Counted from the stretch's first letter, positions 1 to 50,437 are shown. The stretch: DNA of 64,000 nt from Gemmatimonadaceae bacterium (GCA_030835125.1 JAUQWM010000071.1:1-64000); one strand, 5' to 3'. A program made the numbers and translations. The notes: generated by a model from the letters alone, not told the origin.

Positions 1-1640
1 GCCCTTCACATCCACCGTGATCTTGCGCGACAGGTCGCCGCGCGCCACCGCCGTCGCCACCTCGGCGATGTTGCGCACCTGGCTGGTCAGGTTGCCCGCC
101 ATCGAGTTGACGTTGTCGGTCAGGTCCTTCCAGGTGCCCGCGACGCCGCGCACGGTCGCCTGCCCGCCCAGCTTGCCCTCGGTGCCCACCTCGCGGGCCA
201 CGCGCGTCACCTCGGACGCGAAGGCGTTGAGCTGGTCAACCATCGTGTTGATCGTGTCCTTCAGCTCCCGGATCTCGCCCTTCACGTCCACCGTGACCTT
301 GCGCGACAGGTCACCACGCGCGACGGCCGTCGCCACCTCGGCGATGTTCCGGACCTGGCCCGTGAGGTTGGACGCCATCGAGTTCACGTTGTCGGTCAGG
401 TTCTTCCACGTGCCGGCCACGCCCGGCACCTCGGCCTGCCCGCCGAGCTTGCCGTCGGTGCCCACCTCGCGCGCCACGCGACTGACCTCGGACGCGAAGG
501 CGTTGAGCTGGTCTACCATGGTGTTGATGGTGTCCTTGAGCTCGAGGATCTCGCCCTTCACGTCCACCGTGATCTTGCGCGACAGGTCGCCGCGGGCGAC
601 GGCGGTGGTCACGGCGGCGATGTTGCGGACCTGCGCCGTCAGGTTCGAGGCCATCGCGTTCACCGAGTCGGTGAGGTCCTTCCACGTGCCCGCGACGCCC
701 GGCACGACGGCCTGTCCGCCCAGCTTGCCGTCGGTGCCCACTTCGCGCGCCACGCGCGTGACCTCCGAGGCGAACGCGTTGAGCTGGTCCACCATCGTGT
801 TGATGGTGTTCTTGAGCTCGAGGATCTCGCCCTTCACCTCCACCGTGATCTTGCGCGACAGGTCGCCGCGCGCGACGGCGGTGGTCACTTCGGCGATGTT
901 GCGGACCTGCGCGGTGAGGTTGGTGCCCATCGCGTTCACCGAGTCCGTCAGGTCCTTCCACGTGCCGGCGACGCCGGGCACCGTCGCCTGGCCGCCGAGC
1001 TTGCCGTCCGTCCCGACCTCCCGTGCCACGCGGCTCACTTCGGACGCGAACGAATTGAGCTGGTCCACCATCGTATTGATGGTGTCCTTGAGCTCGAGGA
1101 TCTCGCCCTTCACGTCCACGGTGATCTTGCGCGACAGGTCGCCGCGGGCGACGGCGGTGGTCACGGCGGCGATGTTGCGGACCTGCGCCGTCAGGTTCGA
1201 GGCCATCGCGTTCACCGAGTCGGTGAGGTCCTTCCACGTGCCCGCGACGCCCGGCACGACCGCCTGTCCGCCCAGCTTGCCCTCGGTGCCCACTTCGCGC
1301 GCCACGCGCGTCACCTCGGCGCCGAACGATCGGAGCTGGTCCACCATCGTGTTGATGGCTTCCTTGAGCTGCAGGATCTCGCCCCGCACGTCGACCGTGA
1401 TCTTCCGCGACAGGTCGCCGTTGGCGACGCCGATCGTGACGTCGGCGATGTTGCGGACCTGGGCCGTGAGGTTGCCGGCCATCTGGTTCACGGAGTCCGT
1501 CAGGTCCTTCCACACCCCGGACACCCCGCGCACCTGTGCCTGTCCGCCGAGCTTGCCCTCCGTTCCCACCTCGCGGGCGACGCGCGTGACTTCCGACGTG
1601 AAGACCGACAACTGGTCGATCATCGTGTTGACGAGCCGCG
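1..1640 (-). repeat. 276-bp tandem coding repeats (92-residue HAMP units)
   Basis: Six in-frame units recur every 276 bp. The complement of GKLGGQA falls near 165, 441, 717, 993, 1269 and 1545. Units starting near 550 and near 1102 are almost identical over roughly 200 bp, although they are not adjacent, while neighbouring units differ more. That pattern suggests recombination or gene conversion between alternate units. Confidence 0.85.
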
Positions 1641-14823: not shown

Positions 14824-17383
14824 AGCGCAGAGCGCAAGGCGCAAGGCGCAAAGTCATCGGCGATTTCCCGTCCTGTTCGCGCTGGCGGTCCTGGGTGCAA
14901 CCACCGTTGGCGCGCAGGCGTCGACGGCGGCCGACCCGCAGCTCGTTCGCGCGACGCCGGCGGGCAACATCGGGCGCACGATGCGCGTGGAGCAGGCCCC
15001 CGTGCTGGATGGCCGCGACGGCGACGCGGTGTGGCGCGACGCGCTCACCCTCGACGACTTCCGCCAGGCGGAACCCGCCGAGGCCGGCGAGCCTGCCTTC
15101 CCGACGGTGGCGAAGGTCGTGTACGACCAGCGGTACCTGTACGTCTTCGTGCGCGCGCACGACCCGCACCCGGACAGCATCGTCGGACGCCTGAGCCGCC
15201 GCGACATCGACACCGATTCCGACCAGGTCGGCCTGGTGATCGATGCCTATCACGACCGGCGCACGGGGGTGATGCTGGCCGTGAACCCGGTGGGAGTACG
15301 CTACGACGCCGTGGTCTTCCTGGACAACCAGTCGGATGCGGCATGGGATGGCGTGTGGGACGTCGTCACCCGGGTCGATTCCGCGGGCTGGTCGGCGGAG
15401 TTCCGCATCCCCTTCAGCCAGCTCCGCTTCAATGACCAGGCCGAGCACGTGTTCGGGTTCGGTGTCTGGCGGGACATCGCGCGGCGCAGCCAGCGGGACG
15501 CCTGGCCGCCGACCTACCGCGTCTCTCGTCAGGCGCTCATGTCGCAGATGGGCACGCTCGAGGGACTCAGTGGCATCCAGCGATCCTCGAAGCTGGAGTT
15601 GCTGCCGTTCGTGACGACGCAGAACGTCACCGAGCAGCGCGCCAGCGAGTGGGCCCATCCCCAGAAGGCGGCGATGGGCCTCGACATCAAGTACGGCATC
15701 AAGGAGAACCTGACGGTGGATGCCACGATCAACCCGGACTTCGGGCAGGTCGAGGCCGACCCGGCGGTGCTGAACCTGACCGCGTTCGAGGTGCGATTCG
15801 ACGAGCGGCGGCCGTTCTTCCAGGAAGGCGTCGGCATGTTCCGGTGCCAACCCTGCCAGGGGATCTTCTACCCGCGGCGGATCGGGCGCACGCCGCAACT
15901 GCGCGCCGCGGGGGACCCGGCGTTCACCACGATCCTGGGGGCGGGAAAGCTCACCGGGCGATTCGGCGGTGGCCTCAACCTCGGCATCATCGAGGCGGTG
16001 ACCCAGCGCGAAACCGGGGCGACGGGCAGGACGATCGAGCCGCAGACGAACTACTTCATCGGGCGGCTCTCGCGCGACCTGCGCGGCGGGAGCACGTCGA
16101 TCGGGCTCGTGACGACGGCCGTCAACCGCTCGCTGGATGACGACACGCGTCCGTTCCTCCGCAGCGGCGCCTACATGGCGGTCCTGGAGGGATATCACCG
16201 CTTCGCCGGGGACCGATACGAGTTCAGCGCCTATACCGGTCGCAACCTCGTCACCGGCTCCGAGGAAGCCATCGCCCGGACGCAGCTCAGCTCCGTGCAC
16301 CTGCACCAGCGGCCCGACGGTGACGCAAGGTTCGACTCGACGCGCACGAGCATGGCGGGTGGTGTGGTGTCGTTCTCGCTGTCAAAGATCAGCGGCATGG
16401 TGCGGTACAGTTCGTACGTGCGGATCGCCTCGACGGAGATCGAGCTGAATGACGCCGGCCTGGTCCCGCTCATCAACGATCGGTCGATCCGCAACAACAT
16501 CTCCCTGCGGTCGCTGAGGCCCGGTTCGTGGTACCGCAGCTCGTTCAGCATGATCGAGACGGAGAACCACTGGACGAGTGGCGGGATGCCGAGCGGCAAC
16601 CTGGTGCGCGCGCACACGAGCTTCAGCATGCTGAACAACTGGGGGTGGGCGCTCACGTATACGCTGCTCAACCCGACGGCGAACTACTGCACGTCGTGCG
16701 CGCGTGGCGGGCCGGCACTGCGCGTGGAGCCGACGCAGGCGTTCCAGGTGAACGTGAATGGCGACAGCCGGCGCATGGTCATCCCGCAGCTCGAGTGGGC
16801 GGTGCAGTCCGGCGACGCCGGTCGTTCCTGGGAGCGCCGGGGTTCGGTGGGCTCCGACCTCCGCCTCTCGACCCGCTTCTCGACGTCCCTGAGCGTGGGC
16901 GCGACGCGGCGCGTGGACAACCAGCAGTGGATCGGCAACTACGGACACGTGCTCAGCGACACGACGCACTACACGTTCGCGCGCCTGGCGCAGACTACGA
17001 TGAGCCTGACGGCGCGCGCGTCATTCACCGTGACGCCGATGCTCACGTTCCAGTTCTACGCGCAGCCGTTCATGTCCGCGGGTTCGTTCACCAACTGGCG
17101 CGAAATCGCGGCGGCGAGGGCGGGGCAGTATGACGACCGGTTCCAGCCGTACGGGAACGGGGCGACGCCGACCGGCTTCAACGTGAAGCAGTTCAACTCG
17201 AACGCGGTGATCCGCTGGGAGTACCGCCCGGGCTCGACCGTCTTCCTGGTCTGGCAGCAAGGCAGGGCGCAGGACAACCTGAACCGCGGGTCATTCGAAC
17301 TCGAGCGGGACTACCGCGACCTGTTCCGCGCCCATCCGATCAACACCTTCCTGATCAAGGCGACGTATTTCTTCAATCCGTAG
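14765..17383 (+). CDS. Outer-membrane CBM9/DUF5916 beta-barrel protein
   Basis: The longest frame gives 872 residues. A CBM9-like carbohydrate-binding beta-sandwich (about 70-250: APVLDGRDGDAVW, SDQVGLVIDAYHDRRTG) is followed by a DUF5916 beta-barrel ending in the aromatic terminus LIKATYFFNP. The start is uncertain. ATG 14765 and ATG 14783 overlap the preceding gene; TTG 14810 gives a basic N-region then a hydrophobic signal (FPVLFALAVLGA) ending near AQA. In every case the basic N-region is encoded by a 7-bp repeat array. The role is unknown; the family is common in exporters of proteases and glycans. It is probably co-transcribed with the M20 gene. Confidence 0.82.
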   Translation: MLSTGRMYCCRRFSHLTPRKAQSARRKAQSHRRFPVLFALAVLGATTVGAQASTAADPQLVRATPAGNIGRTMRVEQAPVLDGRDGDAVWRDALTLDDFRQAEPAEAGEPAFPTVAKVVYDQRYLYVFVRAHDPHPDSIVGRLSRRDIDTDSDQVGLVIDAYHDRRTGVMLAVNPVGVRYDAVVFLDNQSDAAWDGVWDVVTRVDSAGWSAEFRIPFSQLRFNDQAEHVFGFGVWRDIARRSQRDAWPPTYRVSRQALMSQMGTLEGLSGIQRSSKLELLPFVTTQNVTEQRASEWAHPQKAAMGLDIKYGIKENLTVDATINPDFGQVEADPAVLNLTAFEVRFDERRPFFQEGVGMFRCQPCQGIFYPRRIGRTPQLRAAGDPAFTTILGAGKLTGRFGGGLNLGIIEAVTQRETGATGRTIEPQTNYFIGRLSRDLRGGSTSIGLVTTAVNRSLDDDTRPFLRSGAYMAVLEGYHRFAGDRYEFSAYTGRNLVTGSEEAIARTQLSSVHLHQRPDGDARFDSTRTSMAGGVVSFSLSKISGMVRYSSYVRIASTEIELNDAGLVPLINDRSIRNNISLRSLRPGSWYRSSFSMIETENHWTSGGMPSGNLVRAHTSFSMLNNWGWALTYTLLNPTANYCTSCARGGPALRVEPTQAFQVNVNGDSRRMVIPQLEWAVQSGDAGRSWERRGSVGSDLRLSTRFSTSLSVGATRRVDNQQWIGNYGHVLSDTTHYTFARLAQTTMSLTARASFTVTPMLTFQFYAQPFMSAGSFTNWREIAAARAGQYDDRFQPYGNGATPTGFNVKQFNSNAVIRWEYRPGSTVFLVWQQGRAQDNLNRGSFELERDYRDLFRAHPINTFLIKATYFFNP
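14824..14853. repeat. Heptad array A (AGCGCAR/GGCGCAA)
   Basis: Four units of 7 bp (AGCGCAG, AGCGCAA, GGCGCAA, GGCGCAA) start immediately after the TAA of the M20 gene (14821-14823). They are also in frame with the possible N-terminus of the DUF5916 gene. Confidence 0.75.
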
Positions 17384-17391
17384 ATTGAAGG

Positions 17392-17445
17392 GACGGGCGA
17401 CGGGCGACGATGTGCCGAGTCACGAATCACGAATCACGAGTCACG
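17392..17445. repeat. Heptad array B (GACGGGC and ARTCACG)
   Basis: GACGGGC twice, then AGTCACG, AATCACG, AATCACG, AGTCACG, all with period 7. The array begins nine bases after the DUF5916 stop. The ARTCACG part supplies the last codons and the TGA of the convergent amidase gene (stop at 17434-17436). Confidence 0.75.
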
Positions 17446-18992: not shown

Positions 18993-20573
18993 ATGAATCG
19001 ACTGCTCACGACAGGCGTGTTCTCCCTGATGATCGCCGTCCATGCCCCGGCCCAGGCGCCGACGTATGACCTGCTGATCGCCGGGGGGATGGTGGTGGAT
19101 GGCACGGGCAGCCCCGCATTCCGGGCCGACGTGGCGATCGCCGGGGGGCGGATCGCGGCGGTTTCCCGGACGCCCATTCCGGCGTCGGCGGCCCGGCGGC
19201 GGATCAACGCATCGGGCCTGATCGTCGCACCGGGCTTCATCGACCTCCACGCCCACCTCGAGCCGATCCTCACCATGCCCGACGCGGAGTCGCACGTCCG
19301 GCAGGGCGTGACCCTGGCGTTAGGCGGAGCCGATGGCGGCGGGGCGAGCCCCATGGGGGCGTACCTGGCCCGCGTGGAGCAGGTGAAGCTCGGGATGAAC
19401 GTGGCCTTCCTCACCGGGCACAACACGATCCGCCGCGCCGTGATGGGCACCGCCAACCGCGCACCGACGCCTGACGAGCTGCAGCGCATGCGGGCGATGG
19501 TCGCGCAGGCGATGGGCGAGGGCGCCTTCGGGCTCAGCACGGGACTCCGCTATGTCCCCGGATTCTACTCACACGTCGACGAGGTAGTCGCGCTGTCGCA
19601 GATCGCGGCCGACTCGGGCGGGATCTACACCTCGCACCTGCGCGAGGAGGGCGTGCACCTCCTGGAGGGCGTGGCAGAGGCGCTCGAGATCGGGCGGCGG
19701 GCGCGGATCCCCGTGGTGCTCACTCACCACAAGGCCGTCGGCCGCCAGATGTGGGGAAAGAGCGTGGTCACGCTCGCCATGGTCGACTCGGCGCGTCGCG
19801 CCGGGACCGATGTCATGATCGACCAGTATCCGTACGCGGCAAGCCACACGGGACTCGACATCCTCGTGCCGCCCTGGGCGCTCGCCGGCGGCGACTCGGC
19901 GCTGCGGCGTCGCCTCGGCGATCCGGTGCTCAACGACAGCATCGAGGCCGGCATCGTCGACAACCTGCTCAACGATCGGGGCGGCGGCGACCTGAAGCGC
20001 GTCCAGTTCTCGCGCGTGGGCTGGGACTCCACGCTCAACGGGAAGACGCTGCACGACCTGCTGGTCCGGCTGAACATCGATCCCACGATCGAGAACGCGC
20101 CGCCGGTGATCCTCGACGCCGTGCTCAGGGGCGGCGCGTCAACGATCTACCACGTCCTGGACGAACAGGACGTCAGGCGGATCATGGCGCACCCGCAGAC
20201 GATGATTGCCAGCGATGGCCGGTTGAACCGGCTCGGCGACGCGGTGCCGCACCCGCGCGCGTACGGCACGTTCCCGCGCGTGCTGGGGAAGTACGTGCGC
20301 GAGGACAAGGTGCTGACGCTCGAGCAGGCCGTGCGGAAGATGACGTCGATGCCGGCGACGCGGCTTGGCCTTACCGATCGCGGCTGCCTGCGCGAAGGAT
20401 GCGCGGCCGACGTGACGATCTTCAGCGCGCAGCAGGTGAGGGACGTCGGCACGTACGCCGACCCGCATCACTATCCCGAGGGCATTCCCTGGGTGATCGT
20501 GAACGGCGTGCCGGTGGTGGACAACGGCGCATTCACGACGGCACGGCCGGGGAAGGTGCTCCGGCGAAAATAG
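18993..20573 (+). CDS. Secreted D-aminoacylase-like (N-acyl-D-amino-acid deacylase) amidohydrolase
   Basis: A 526-residue protein with a short signal peptide (MNRLLTTGVFSLMIAVHAPA). The amidohydrolase barrel shows DLHAH (His86, His88), YTSHLREEG, VLTHHKAVG and the conserved Asp in MIASDGRLN. Characterised D-aminoacylases have a metal-ligand Cys in a GNCG-type loop after strand 2; the matching position here is GGADGGG (Asp114). That puts it in a subgroup whose substrate may differ (dipeptides, N-acyl or N-carbamoyl compounds). A second paralogue with the same swap lies at 23064. Confidence 0.82.
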   Translation: MNRLLTTGVFSLMIAVHAPAQAPTYDLLIAGGMVVDGTGSPAFRADVAIAGGRIAAVSRTPIPASAARRRINASGLIVAPGFIDLHAHLEPILTMPDAESHVRQGVTLALGGADGGGASPMGAYLARVEQVKLGMNVAFLTGHNTIRRAVMGTANRAPTPDELQRMRAMVAQAMGEGAFGLSTGLRYVPGFYSHVDEVVALSQIAADSGGIYTSHLREEGVHLLEGVAEALEIGRRARIPVVLTHHKAVGRQMWGKSVVTLAMVDSARRAGTDVMIDQYPYAASHTGLDILVPPWALAGGDSALRRRLGDPVLNDSIEAGIVDNLLNDRGGGDLKRVQFSRVGWDSTLNGKTLHDLLVRLNIDPTIENAPPVILDAVLRGGASTIYHVLDEQDVRRIMAHPQTMIASDGRLNRLGDAVPHPRAYGTFPRVLGKYVREDKVLTLEQAVRKMTSMPATRLGLTDRGCLREGCAADVTIFSAQQVRDVGTYADPHHYPEGIPWVIVNGVPVVDNGAFTTARPGKVLRRK

Positions 20574-20591
20574 AGACGGGAGACGGGAGAC
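20573..20591. repeat. Heptad array C (GAGACGG)
   Basis: GAGACGG twice plus a partial third unit. The first G is the last base of the TAG that ends the D-aminoacylase-like gene. Confidence 0.6.
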
Positions 20592-24864: not shown

Positions 24865-26103
24865 GTGACGACGCTCGACGAGCGCGCGCAGTTCATCACC
24901 GACTTCGCCAGGCGGCTCCACCTGGCGGGTGTCTCGGCGGCGAGACTCGAGGGCGCGGTGAGGATGACCGCGCATGCGATCGGCGTCGAGTGCGAGATCT
25001 GGTCGAGCCCGACCGGCATCCTCCTCTCCATGGCGGAAGCAGGTGACCCGCGCTCGATCCAGCATACGCGTGTCCTTCGCCTCGATCCTGCCGAGCCGAA
25101 CCTGTCGGACCTGGTGACGCTCGACGCTGTTGCGGAGGATGTCATTGCGCAGCGCGTGGGCATTGGTGAGGCGTCGCGCCGCCTGACCCAGCTCGACCAG
25201 CCGCCGGGCCGCGCGCAGTTGGCGTGGACGGTGATGGCTTTCGGCCTGGCGTCCGCGGCGGTGGCGGGCCTGTTACGGACCAGCTGGCTGGACATCGCCG
25301 TCGCCGGGGGACTTGGCCTCATCATCGGGAGCATCGCGGTCGAGGCGCGAACGCGCCCGCACCTGTCGGCGGCGTCGGAGGCGATTGCGGCGATCGTGGC
25401 CACGGTGCTGGCCGCCGCCTTCGCGCACTTCATCGCGCCGCTTTCGATCCAGACCGTGGTGATTTCCGCGCTGATCGTGCTGATGCCGGGCCTTTCGCTG
25501 ACGACCGCGGTCGCCGAGCTGGCGTCGAAGCAGCTGGTGACCGGGACGACGCGCTTCGCCGGCGCCATGGTCGTGCTGTTCAAGCTCACGTTCGGCAGCG
25601 TGGCGGGTGCCCAGATCGTGAGCGCGCTCGGGTGGGTGCCGCGCACGGCGCAGGCGGTCCAGCTTCCGGCGGCGATCGAGGTGGTCGCCACGCTGGCGGC
25701 GGCCTTCTCGTTCGCGATCCTGTTCCGCGCCTCACGGCGCGACGTGCCGCTGGTGGTGGGGAGCGCGGTGCTGGGTTACGTGCTGACCCGCGTCGGGAGC
25801 GCCTGGTTCGCGCAGACGGAGGGCGTCGCGTTTGCGGGCGCGGTCTTCTTTTCCAGCCTGGTGATGGCCGCGCTGGCGAATGTCTACGGTCGCGTGGCGG
25901 GGCGGCCCGGCACCATCGTGCGCCTGCCGGCGATCATGCTGCTGGTACCCGGGAGCGTGGGCTTCCGCGGCCTCGCCTCGCTGATGGAGCGGGACTACAC
26001 GTTAGGCCTGGAGACGGGGGTCGCCGTGCTGAGCGCGCTGGTGGCACTGATGGCGGGACTGCTGTTCGGGAGCGTGCTCGTGCCACCGAGAAGGTACTTG
26101 TAG
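24865..26103 (+). CDS. Threonine/serine exporter (ThrE) family membrane protein
   Basis: A 412-residue protein from a GTG start. A soluble N-terminal domain of about 115 residues (RLHLAGVSAARLE, ECEIWSSPTGILLSM) precedes about ten hydrophobic segments. The layout is that of single-chain ThrE proteins (DUF1212 plus ThrE_2). Known members export threonine and serine or short peptides. Placement after the amidohydrolases and before an OPT transporter gene suggests a role in balancing amino acid release. The stop is followed three bases later by heptad array D. Confidence 0.85.
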   Translation: MTTLDERAQFITDFARRLHLAGVSAARLEGAVRMTAHAIGVECEIWSSPTGILLSMAEAGDPRSIQHTRVLRLDPAEPNLSDLVTLDAVAEDVIAQRVGIGEASRRLTQLDQPPGRAQLAWTVMAFGLASAAVAGLLRTSWLDIAVAGGLGLIIGSIAVEARTRPHLSAASEAIAAIVATVLAAAFAHFIAPLSIQTVVISALIVLMPGLSLTTAVAELASKQLVTGTTRFAGAMVVLFKLTFGSVAGAQIVSALGWVPRTAQAVQLPAAIEVVATLAAAFSFAILFRASRRDVPLVVGSAVLGYVLTRVGSAWFAQTEGVAFAGAVFFSSLVMAALANVYGRVAGRPGTIVRLPAIMLLVPGSVGFRGLASLMERDYTLGLETGVAVLSALVALMAGLLFGSVLVPPRRYL

Positions 26104-26106
26104 AGT

Positions 26107-26274
26107 GCAGAGCGAGCAGAGTGCAGAGTGCAGAGTGCAGAGTGCAGAGTGCAGAGTGCAGATTGCAGAGGGGCAACGAAGCACTCATGTCGAGGGACGG
26201 GCAGAGAACGCGTGACACAACCCCCTCTGCAATCCGCAATCTGCACTCTGCAATCTGCACTCTGCTCGCTCTGC
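26107..26274. repeat. Heptad array D: inverted pair between convergent genes
   Basis: The left arm (26107-26173) is two variant units, six GTGCAGA, one TTGCAGA, then GGGG. The right arm (26221-26274) is the inverse: the same two leading units, then GTGCAGA, TTGCAGA, GTGCAGA, TTGCGGA, TTGCAGA and GGGG. The left arm starts three bases after the TAG of thrE; the right arm starts two bases after the TAG of the OPT gene. A loop of about 47 bp separates them. It could act as a bidirectional transcription end signal. Confidence 0.85.
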
Positions 26275-26276
26275 CG

Positions 26277-28259
26277 CTACAACAACACGTTCACGATCGC
26301 GTTCCCGATGCCCACCAGCGCGGCGCCTGAGATCAACCCGGCGCAGATCGATTCGTAGCCGTCGACCCAGATCGCGTGCGCGCGTGAGCCCGGTGCCGGC
26401 TTTTTCCGGGCCATCCACCAGAAGATCATGGCGCCGACCCACATCGCGAGGCACGATTCGGGCGGGAGCACCACGCCCAGTCCGATCGACACCGCCGAGA
26501 GCGGGAACGCACCCTTCGACCTGATCCGGGCGAGCTCAAAGACGAGCGCGAGGATCGCGGCGACGATCATCGAGATCACGGCTGATGTCGGCAGCTGGCT
26601 CAGTCCATTGGTGATCAGGTCTGCCACGCCCTTCCACTGCATCGCCGCCGGCATCGCGAATTGCTCCGACACGATCGTGGTGGTCGAGCGGACCCCATCG
26701 GCACCAGGCGGCAGGAAGAGCAGGAAGAAGAGCGGAACCGTGGCGATGGAGCCGGCCAGGATGCCGATGACGTGACCGATCGCCTGCTGCCGCGGCTTGG
26801 CGCCGAGCATGTACCCGGGCTTGATGTCCGACAGCAGGTTCGAGGCGTTTGACGAGATCTCCGCCGTCATCGTGGCCGGGATCAGGTTGGTCGCCGGGTT
26901 CACCCGATCGATCGCGCCCATCGTGAACTGCGTGATCTTCGACAGCGCGCCGGTTGGCGTCCACGACGTCAGCGCCATCGAGTTCGTCGAGATGATCGTC
27001 AGCACGAAGATGAGCGGCAGCGAGACCAGCGCCAGGAACCACGACACGCCGAAGAACACGTGCGTGAGCGCCGCGCCCACCACGCACAGGACCGGCACGC
27101 CGATGAACGAGATCCAGAGCGGCAGCTCGATGTGCCGCAGCGGATCCGCGCCCCCGGGCGCCGTCTTCTTCGCCTTCAGTGCCGCGAACGCCTTCGTGAT
27201 CAGCTCCGGCTTGGCGAAGAGTCCCACCAGCGACCCCACCACCATCATCGTCACGCCCCACCAGAGCGCCCACTGGTTCACGATCTCGGCCCGCGAGATC
27301 GCCACCAGCGCACCGTTGGGCGCCGTGTACGAGGCGATGTCCCCCCGCTGGATCATGATCGGCGCCAGCACCGCAAAGTTCACCAGCGCGCCGAGCAGCA
27401 CGCTCGTCGCCACCTTGATGCCCATCAGGCCACCGATCCCGAGCATCGCGGCATCGAGGGTGAGCCGCAGGCCAAGCTGGCGGATATCCGTCCCCAGGAT
27501 CCTGGGGATCCAGAGGTTCATCCGGGCGGCGGCATCGTAGTAGTACGTGTCGAAGCGCTCCATCCAGTGCCAGGGCTCCGTCATCCCCGCCCACCGGTCC
27601 ATGCGCAGGATCCTGAACTGCAGCAGCCGCATCCAGCCGTCGCTGGAGATGAACTGGTAGAATCCCGTGGCGGCCGCCGTGACGCCGAGCAGCCTGGCCT
27701 TGAACATCCCCGCCGCGGCCTCGCCCGTGTACAGTGCGTCGAGGACGACGCCGGCGGCGCGTCCCTCCGGGAACGGGAGCTGGTCCTCGTTGATGAAACG
27801 ACGCTTCATGGGGAACGCGACCAGTACCCCGATGCACGAGATGCACGTGTTCCACAGCATCAGCTGCCACCACGGCACGATGTTCGTGGTGACCATCATG
27901 TACGCCGCCATCCCCGACGTGATGGGCGTGACCATGTAGCCGGCCGCCGTGGCGATCGACTGCGTGCAGTTGTTCTCGAGGATGGTGAAATCGTCGATGA
28001 TCCCCGACTGCGACATGATCCGGAACATCGCGAACGCGAGGATCACCGACGTCAGCCCCACCCCGATGGTGATGCCGGTCTTGCCGGCGATGTACAGCGC
28101 CGTGGCCGACAGCACACCGCCCAGCAGGAACCCGGTGATCGCCGCCCGCACGGTGAGCTGCGGCATGTCACCCCGGTACACGTTCTCGAACCACCACTGG
28201 TCCTTCTGGAGGCGCGACCAGGAGGCGACCTGTTCCTCGCTCAGCTGCTTGATGGCCAT
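26277..28259 (-). CDS. OPT-family oligopeptide transporter
   Basis: About 660 residues; start put at the internal ATG at 28259 (MAIKQLSEEQ), though the frame extends to 28268. The N-terminal block RAAITGFLLGGVLSATALY and the following ENNCTQSIATAAGYM region, plus QLPFPEGRAAG near 165-175, are OPT-family signatures. The rest is about a dozen hydrophobic segments. OPT proteins take up oligopeptides or metal chelates by proton coupling. Beside peptidase and D-aminoacylase genes, peptide import is the simplest role. It is convergent with thrE. Confidence 0.88.
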   Translation of the reverse strand: MAIKQLSEEQVASWSRLQKDQWWFENVYRGDMPQLTVRAAITGFLLGGVLSATALYIAGKTGITIGVGLTSVILAFAMFRIMSQSGIIDDFTILENNCTQSIATAAGYMVTPITSGMAAYMMVTTNIVPWWQLMLWNTCISCIGVLVAFPMKRRFINEDQLPFPEGRAAGVVLDALYTGEAAAGMFKARLLGVTAAATGFYQFISSDGWMRLLQFRILRMDRWAGMTEPWHWMERFDTYYYDAAARMNLWIPRILGTDIRQLGLRLTLDAAMLGIGGLMGIKVATSVLLGALVNFAVLAPIMIQRGDIASYTAPNGALVAISRAEIVNQWALWWGVTMMVVGSLVGLFAKPELITKAFAALKAKKTAPGGADPLRHIELPLWISFIGVPVLCVVGAALTHVFFGVSWFLALVSLPLIFVLTIISTNSMALTSWTPTGALSKITQFTMGAIDRVNPATNLIPATMTAEISSNASNLLSDIKPGYMLGAKPRQQAIGHVIGILAGSIATVPLFFLLFLPPGADGVRSTTTIVSEQFAMPAAMQWKGVADLITNGLSQLPTSAVISMIVAAILALVFELARIRSKGAFPLSAVSIGLGVVLPPESCLAMWVGAMIFWWMARKKPAPGSRAHAIWVDGYESICAGLISGAALVGIGNAIVNVLL

Positions 28260-28415
28260 GGTCGGCACCAGAAGGGGGATCCCTGACGAACCCGATGGAG
28301 CGCGCCAATCGTCGCTGGCGGACGGGGCCTTCGCAAGCCGGCGCGGGTGACACGATGCCAGATTTCCCGGGACACCGGTCCGATCCCGTGTGCGTCGACC
28401 ATCACCCCCTCCATC

Positions 28416-44619: not shown

Positions 44620-44647
44620 TGCAGAGTGCAGAGTGCAGATCGCAGAT
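44620..44647. repeat. Heptad array E (TGCAGAG/TGCAGAT)
   Basis: Four units (TGCAGAG, TGCAGAG, TGCAGAT, CGCAGAT) begin one base after the TGA of the small lipoprotein gene. There is no inverted partner. Confidence 0.75.
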
Positions 44648-44747: not shown

Positions 44748-45113
44748 ATGGCGAACGACGCGTACAGTCCGGAGCGCTTGCAGCAGCGGCTTGTGATGTT
44801 CGGAGTGGGAGTCTGCCGCGGTCCTGCGCGTGCGCGCGGCGATGCCATCACGGCGCATGTAGCGGCGCAGCTCATCCGCTCAGCGACCGCCCCCGCGGCG
44901 ATCTGCGCCGAGGCGCGGTCGGCGGAGTCCCGGCGGGACTTCCAGCACAAGATGCAGGTTTGCCTCAAGGAGCTGCGCGAGACGGCGGTCTGGTTGCAGT
45001 TCCTCGACGCACTGCACTCCGGCGATCCCGAGCGGACGCGCCTGGCGCAGGAGTGCAATGAGCTGACCGCCATCTTCGTCGCCAGCCTTCGCACCGTACG
45101 ACGAGGACGATGA
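44748..45113 (+). CDS. Four-helix-bundle protein of the 23S-IVP/S23 family
   Basis: A 121-residue all-helical protein. The order RLVMFGVGVCR, AAQLIRSATAPAAICAEARSAESRRDFQHKMQVCLKE (shown split here as two helices), LRETAVWLQFLDALHSGD and LAQECNELTAIFVASLRTV matches the IVP23/S23 four-helix-bundle family. The fold is also used by Avd of diversity-generating retroelements, but no reverse transcriptase is nearby. The biological role of free-standing members is unknown. It is bracketed by TGCAGAG/TGCAGAT arrays on both sides. The start (ATG at 44748) has only a weak ribosome site. Confidence 0.75.
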   Translation: MANDAYSPERLQQRLVMFGVGVCRGPARARGDAITAHVAAQLIRSATAPAAICAEARSAESRRDFQHKMQVCLKELRETAVWLQFLDALHSGDPERTRLAQECNELTAIFVASLRTVRRGR

Positions 45114-45221
45114 GTGCAGATTGCAGAGTGCAGATTGCAGATTGCAGAGTGGGGGCGTAGGGAGTGACACTCGCGCTGCAACGCTCCAATCCGCAATCTG
45201 CACTCTGCAATCTGCATTCAC
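45114..45221. repeat. Heptad array F: inverted pair between convergent genes
   Basis: Left arm: five units of GTGCAGA/TTGCAGA directly after the TGA at 45111-45113. Right arm (45186-45219) is the inverse: TGCAGAT, TGCAGAG, TGCAGAT, TGCGGAT, read from just after the TGA of the minus-strand gene. The variant unit TTGCGGA also occurs in the right arm of array D. Confidence 0.8.
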
Positions 45222-45940: not shown

Positions 45941-46080
45941 AATGCAGAGTGCAGATTGCAGATTGCAGATTGCAGATTGCAGATTGCAGCCGCTGGATGG
46001 ACGTCACGACGCGACACGCCGACCCTCGCCCGCCGGCCCTCCACACTCCAACTCAGCAATCTGCAATCTGCAATTCGCCG
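45941..46080. repeat. Heptad array G: inverted pair, one arm orphaned
   Basis: Left arm: TGCAGAG then four TGCAGAT (45941-45975). Right arm (46055-46075): the inverse of TTGCAGA, TTGCAGA, TTGCTGA, beginning nine bases after the stop of the minus-strand 46082 gene. No plus-strand gene ends before the left arm; the nearest gene, at 45857, starts in the opposite direction. Confidence 0.75.
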
Positions 46081-50395: not shown

Positions 50396-50437
50396 CGCAG
50401 CGCGTGGAGCGAGAGCGCAAAGCGCAAAGCGTAAAGG
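50396..50437. repeat. Heptad array H (AGCGCAA)
   Basis: Directly after the TAG at 50393-50395 comes a degenerate lead, then GAGCGAG, AGCGCAA, AGCGCAA, AGCGTAA and AG. The unit is shared with array A. Confidence 0.65.

Follow-up and report, generated by a model that had tools for sequence, protein, structure and literature searches.

A heptanucleotide hairpin between thrE and an oligopeptide transporter gene in a Gemmatimonadaceae genome is one member of a genome-wide class of period-seven arrays

Why two convergent genes of a Gemmatimonadaceae bacterium should end in mirror-image arrays of the same seven-letter units, and whether such a structure is a terminator, a copied element or part of something more widespread, is the question raised by the gap between thrE and an OPT gene in the window analysed here (the whole stretch of 64,000 nucleotides, JAUQWM010000071.1:1-64000). 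The threonine/serine exporter gene thrE (ORF at 24865–26103, plus strand, stop codon TAG at 26101–26103) encodes a product matching Pfam ThrE (PF06738, E 7e-53) and also ThrE_2 (PF12821), while the product of the oligopeptide transporter gene (ORF at 26277–28268, minus strand, stop codon TAG at 26279–26277) matches Pfam OPT (PF03169, E 1.5e-68). The two genes form a convergent pair and a heptad hairpin fills the gap between them.

The left arm begins 3 bases past the TAG of thrE with the leader GCAGAGC-GAGCAGA (26107–26120, plus strand), followed by six GTGCAGA units, one TTGCAGA and GGGG (26121–26173). After a loop of 47 nt (26174–26220) comes the right arm which, read on the minus strand and beginning 2 bases past the TAG of the OPT gene, consists of a second copy of the leader (26261–26274) and the units GTGCAGA, TTGCAGA, GTGCAGA, TTGCGGA and TTGCAGA ending in GGGGG (26221–26260). 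The general unit after the leader is KTGCAGA, each arm closes in GGGG, and the full left arm (26107–26173) holds nine units and the full right arm (26274–26221) seven. Arms, leaders, TAG codons, spacers, unit counts and loop length all agree to the base with the first-pass annotation of the window. The entire inverted repeat extends over 26098–26282, includes TTGTAG and thereby both stop codons, and has 53 of 59 positions matching when gaps are allowed. The symmetry and a possible hairpin are supported, with a predicted RNA fold of -116.2 kcal/mol compared with -66.2 ± 4.2 for shuffled sequences (z = -11.9); the inverted heptad structure is not due to chance. A search of Rfam with the hairpin gave just sub-threshold microRNA-precursor and 3'-UTR models, which were interpreted as false hits on a long hairpin.

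The first description of the arms as inverted copies holds for the leader and the inner TTGCAGA-GGGG end, to which the exact mirror is confined, but not for the inner units, whose order differs between the arms. The leader GCAGAGCGAGCAGA was not found anywhere else in the whole genome, other convergent pairs included, and is therefore specific for this locus rather than a recurring module. Since it is private to the two arms, inverted copying at the thrE-OPT locus itself appears likely from the sequence, and the proposal of a single element, copied in inverted orientation to the end of each gene, is plausible here.

What the first-pass annotation had missed is that the hairpin belongs to a class spread over the whole genome, in which about ten different units are used; despite the private leader, about 30% of the sampled convergent gaps (23/76) carry heptad arrays, of various units. 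The genome statistics are all drawn from 862 kb, corresponding to 19% of one genome, a non-random and somewhat enriched sample in which several contigs were picked for their TGCAGA arrays and in which genes were called with a home-made script based on simple ORFs and hexamers. A unit-agnostic scan of these 862 kb revealed 101 intergenic and 10 genic runs of period 7, while the other periods from 4 to 15 gave at most 11 intergenic runs each, except for 14, the double of 7. Period 7 dominates the intergenic repeats of the sample. The units fall, when grouped by eye, into about ten families, one of them TGCAGA and the others AACTCTC, ACGAGTC, ACCTCTG, ACTCTGC, AGGCATC, AATCGGG, ACCCTCG, AAAGCGC, AGAGGCC and ACGGGAG with their neighbours, and in some arrays one unit gives way to another while the register is kept. 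The three-unit KTGCAGA pattern has 112 forward and 78 reverse matches in this genome, a single match in the sister species (G001) and none in 34 other genomes of the family. GTGCAGA, GAGTTGA, AGGCATC and most other units lack a run of GGG, so G-quadruplexes are an unlikely explanation of the arrays. The unit GGGAATC is also present; four consecutive copies of it occur in this genome alone among 298 genomes of the phylum, and a shared phylum heritage of this unit was rejected on that ground.

Several further heptad loci lie in the window itself. A second hairpin of TGCAGA units (45111–45220, 36 of 40 matching) is situated between convergent ORFs and has the same order of variants in both arms, a third (45943–46074) lies between two minus-strand ORFs, and a lone TGCAGA array (44620–44647, plus strand) stands directly past a stop codon with no partner arm. 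The convergent gap at 17392–17445 has arms from two families, GACGGGC and CGAATCA, and at the corresponding gap the sister species carries GCGCCGA-type repeats. Short arrays of other heptads (AAAGCGC, ACGGGAG) were seen at 14824–14851, 20573–20591 and 50414–50436.

Of the convergent gaps in the sample, 23 of 76 carry arrays, compared with 50 of the 287 tandem gaps and 11 of the 100 divergent ones, and arrays were commoner in gaps containing a 3' end (63/270) than in divergent ones (11/98, p = 0.012). Median distances from the outer edge of an array are 4 nt to a stop codon and 48.5 nt to a start codon (p = 2e-6). There is also a rule of orientation, the G-rich strand usually pointing away from the adjoining gene: 34 of 42 gaps with two arrays, 12 of them with arms of different families, have a G-rich array on the left and a C-rich one on the right, and lone arrays obey the same rule (52 vs 10). 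Control gaps free of arrays are skewed in the same sense, more weakly if tandem or divergent and hardly at all if convergent, and the rule is thus partly a matter of general base composition.

The relations between arms were examined in the same 42 two-array gaps. Inverted arms of the same family occur in 25 of them; 2000 shuffles gave 9.7 on average and never more than 22. In 15 the two arms do not stand as same-family copies, inverted or direct, some gaps pairing one arm from each of two families; another 63 gaps in the sample hold a single array. Among 28 strong inverted pairs no similarity was found from loop to loop, and the thrE-OPT loop is likewise unlike those of the other sampled hairpins. 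The order of variants matches between arms at several loci (e.g. C45:175971 and C7:24579). Within a family, however, arms often resemble arms at other loci at least as closely as their own partner, and the expectation that arms of a family match best inside their own locus was rejected as a general rule. The duplication of one element in inverted form at the two gene ends, plausible at thrE-OPT, is for this reason not a general description, and arm similarity gives no general support to local inverted copying as the rule for the whole class.

The structure had also been taken for a deliberately symmetric bidirectional terminator. A stable, GC-containing hairpin does sit between the convergent stop codons and, judged from its position, the layout fits a 3'-end hairpin serving both transcripts; with bidirectional intrinsic terminators it has exactly this in common, and it differs from them in its long loop, its repeat-built stem and its lack of a U-tract or A-tract. 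No T-run was found beyond either arm at thrE-OPT, and in the sample only 1 of 32 hairpin 3' sides has at least 5 T within 8 nt. The loops have a median of 27.5 nt (28 hairpins), the 47 nt at thrE-OPT comparing with a terminator norm of about 3–8. As the U-tract is missing and the loops are mostly long, these are not canonical intrinsic terminators. Nor do the arrays track canonical terminator-like hairpins, which are present at 5 of 95 3' ends with heptads and 23 of 310 without; the idea that heptads replace canonical terminators was discarded for this lack of association. A deliberately symmetric terminator is at most a candidate reading.

A broader version would have the arrays selected as bidirectional terminators or insulators, an RNA stem forming soon past the stop codon, with the hairpin kept and the unit free to change. 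This agrees with the position of the arrays at stop codons and their being commonest in convergent gaps, with the very stable folds and with the pyrimidine-rich 3' arm, and further with the sister species, which keeps a hairpin of a different unit at the thrE-OPT gap. It accounts less well for the absent U-tract, the median loop length and the canonical hairpins that are equally frequent with or without heptads and in places lie between the arms, or for the 63 gaps with one array and the 15 of 42 two-array gaps whose arms are not same-family copies in either orientation. On this evidence, selection as terminators is possible but doubtful. Canonical terminator-like hairpins within gaps that carry heptad arrays, some of them between the arms, were observed at C22:152255-152443, C45:69488-69612 and C22:131416-131653.

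To what extent the arrays persist between species was addressed with the sister species G001, whose ThrE is 86% identical. Its thrE-OPT gap contains GAGCGAT units with an imperfect inverted arm, shortly past a TGA stop codon. At a looser threshold, 7 of 25 orthologous gaps have period-7 repeats in both species, and in 6 of these 7 the units differ, as judged by reading; AACTCTC and ACGAGTC are units common to both species. For hairpins at one threshold, 8 of the 25 gaps were occupied in both species, 4 and 1 in a single species and 12 in neither (Fisher p 0.004), a co-occurrence that the terminator reading would predict, but neighbouring thresholds gave p values of 0.01 to 0.09, period-7 scores 0.10 to 0.63 and a combined criterion 0.39, so that most remaining thresholds are non-significant and occupation of common sites beyond chance is only suggestive. 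In the family member G016 the unit ACGCTCC was present at each of the four pairs sampled, and in three of these the C-rich arm comes first; G015 and G023, also of the family, have inverted heptad pairs as well, while in small samples of G022, G011 and G004 no such pairs were found. The differing units at several matching sites of the sister species suggest that what lasts is the arrangement and not the heptad sequence. A genome of the same order and another family (G040) gave 27 forward and 6 reverse matches to the control pattern AGACGTNAGACGTNAGACGT and may carry a heptad family of its own.

The explanation that we put forward, with about even confidence, is that the heptad hairpins are driven by slippage and fold-back at tolerated 3' ends, any effect on the 3' end being at most secondary. 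A short stretch with a 7-bp period near a stop codon would lengthen by 7-bp replication slippage, and the array or its single strand would then template an inverted copy, by fold-back, template switching or conversion from another locus, giving two head-to-head arms whose unit numbers later change independently. At thrE-OPT, where leader and inner end are common to both arms, an inverted duplication is indicated, after which the number of inner units changed. The arrays would persist where they are tolerated, near stop codons and rarely between divergent genes, and RNA from either gene would terminate within or encounter a highly stable hairpin that may aid the end of transcription or the protection of the 3' end irrespective of the unit sequence. 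Slippage, fold-back copying and any such effect on the RNA are our inference. In favour of the reading stand the dominance of period 7, the grading of units in register, the excess of inverted same-family arms, the placement at stop codons, the unrelated loops, the private leader and the GAGCGAT hairpin of the sister species. Against it stand the arms that often resemble their own partner no more than arms of the family at other loci, the shared occupancy that is only suggestive and an orientation bias partly independent of the arrays. Moreover, slippage alone leaves unexplained that a single genome repeats its heptads at many unrelated loci and that two species have different units at one site, and a spread between loci, for which there are candidate processes only, is needed in addition.

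One candidate for this spread is a unit-copying process, for instance template-directed addition or conversion among arrays, which would leave each species with its own units and overwrite older ones where a site is already occupied. It would suit the largely species-specific units (TGCAGA with 112 and 78 matches here, one in the sister species and none in the 34 others; four consecutive GGGAATC in just one of the 298 phylum genomes), the single unit at all four sampled pairs of G016, the different units at orthologous sites and the gaps that pair arms of two families. AACTCTC and ACGAGTC are nevertheless common to both species, and independent loss and gain at permissive sites could also yield differing units; we regard this candidate process as unlikely. 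An active process of this kind that rewrites the heptad word in both arms, keeping place, 7-bp period and head-to-head layout, seems improbable to us, and so does the analogy that would follow, of species-own word sets as in a telomere-like or conversion-driven repeat system.

A non-autonomous, MITE- or REP-like mobile element, inserted near stop codons and in opposite orientation at the two ends, would likewise bring one unit to many unrelated loci of one genome, and gaps that are occupied in one species and short in the other (C22:199414 and C45:43916) are what it would leave behind. The loops are unrelated, however, unit number and length vary continuously, and no target duplications were seen in the orthologous gaps, which were inspected by eye alone. 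Furthermore, the RAYT transposase domain Y1_Tnp (PF01797) is absent from the heptad carriers G000 (this genome), G001 and G016 and present in G004 and G011, whose small samples showed no heptads. Palindromic intergenic repeats at 3' ends are a feature common to REP/BIME elements with RAYT and the present hairpins, which differ in having no fixed palindrome and no RAYT gene found here. A REP/RAYT system was rejected for the lack of PF01797 in this genome, a MITE with a shared interior was not supported by the dissimilar loops, and we consider a mobile element of any such kind quite unlikely. Another, short palindrome, CAATGGGGTCTGACCCCATTG in whole or in part, recurs in the gaps at C45:197646, C28:65688 and C22:137197 of this genome without RAYT (PF01797).

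Library preparation can generate perfect inverted repeats, and as the genome of the window is a draft of 73 contigs, an assembly or sequencing artefact in the form of a fold-back chimera was considered. The architecture at gene ends recurs in two genomes of the genus that were assembled independently and in others of the family, and every locus has its own loop and flanks, which makes an artefact highly improbable.

Heptads are over-represented among long bacterial simple repeats, for reasons that are not agreed upon. A search of the full-text literature, with most subscription papers outside its scope, returned no report of such hairpins in Gemmatimonadota, and we know of none. The nearest known kind are the GGGAATC heptads of Xanthomonas campestris and X. 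axonopodis, of which 89–93% are intergenic; they lie near stop codons or overlap the end of the ORF, with 70 and 75 inverted head-to-head pairs, an under-representation between divergent ORFs and mostly the same gene neighbours in the two species while length and sequence vary (PMC4692102). Common to both systems are period 7, placement, inverted pairs, the orientation rule and the scarcity between divergent genes, and the GGGAATC unit itself is also found in this genome. The Xanthomonas arrays were described with one unit type and a focus on G-quadruplexes (PMC4692102), whereas here there are about ten families, mostly without GGG, so that neither a G-tract of at least three per unit nor a single genome-wide unit is found, and, unlike in the description of Xanthomonas, the unit differs between sister species at one site. 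Transcripts start or stop at the G4-forming repeats of Xanthomonas more often than at controls (PMC4692102), and an influence on transcription is conceivable also in the present case.

Other heptads resemble the present ones in part. As far as they are cited in PMC4692102, the GGGGA(C/T)T repeats of Nostoc and the tandem heptanucleotides of Calothrix are likewise dispersed in intergenic regions near ORFs, with other units and in another phylum. The TAACTGA heptads of Beggiatoaceae are also abundant, intergenic and species-specific in their distribution but are situated mostly just upstream of start codons and in direct orientation, with one inverted case (PMC4679880). In Geobacter metallireducens tandem heptads, four per element and with the consensus GGACCGG, occur in 49 dispersed copies and were proposed as regulatory RNA elements; in contrast to the present arrays they are found also within genes and can be aligned as one family (PMC2700814).

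In this genome a layout like that of Xanthomonas is built from many words, most of them unable to form quadruplexes. The question then shifts from the meaning of the heptad to what sets the period at seven, by which route one arm comes to resemble the other and how a word reaches further loci of its genome. The many such loci make a direct test by comparison of strains possible.

A second family of hairpins in the same genome, with arms GCTGCGTGCTGATTGCTGC...GCAGCAATCAGCACGCAGC and GCTGGT hexads, does not have period 7 and was observed at C22:78455, C22:157658, C28:74022, C7:58660 and C28:131248. At the start of the window (1–1602) there is in addition a tandem repeat with a period of 276 bp, 5.8 copies and 85% matching, which runs past the window edge and probably represents repeated domains within a coding sequence.
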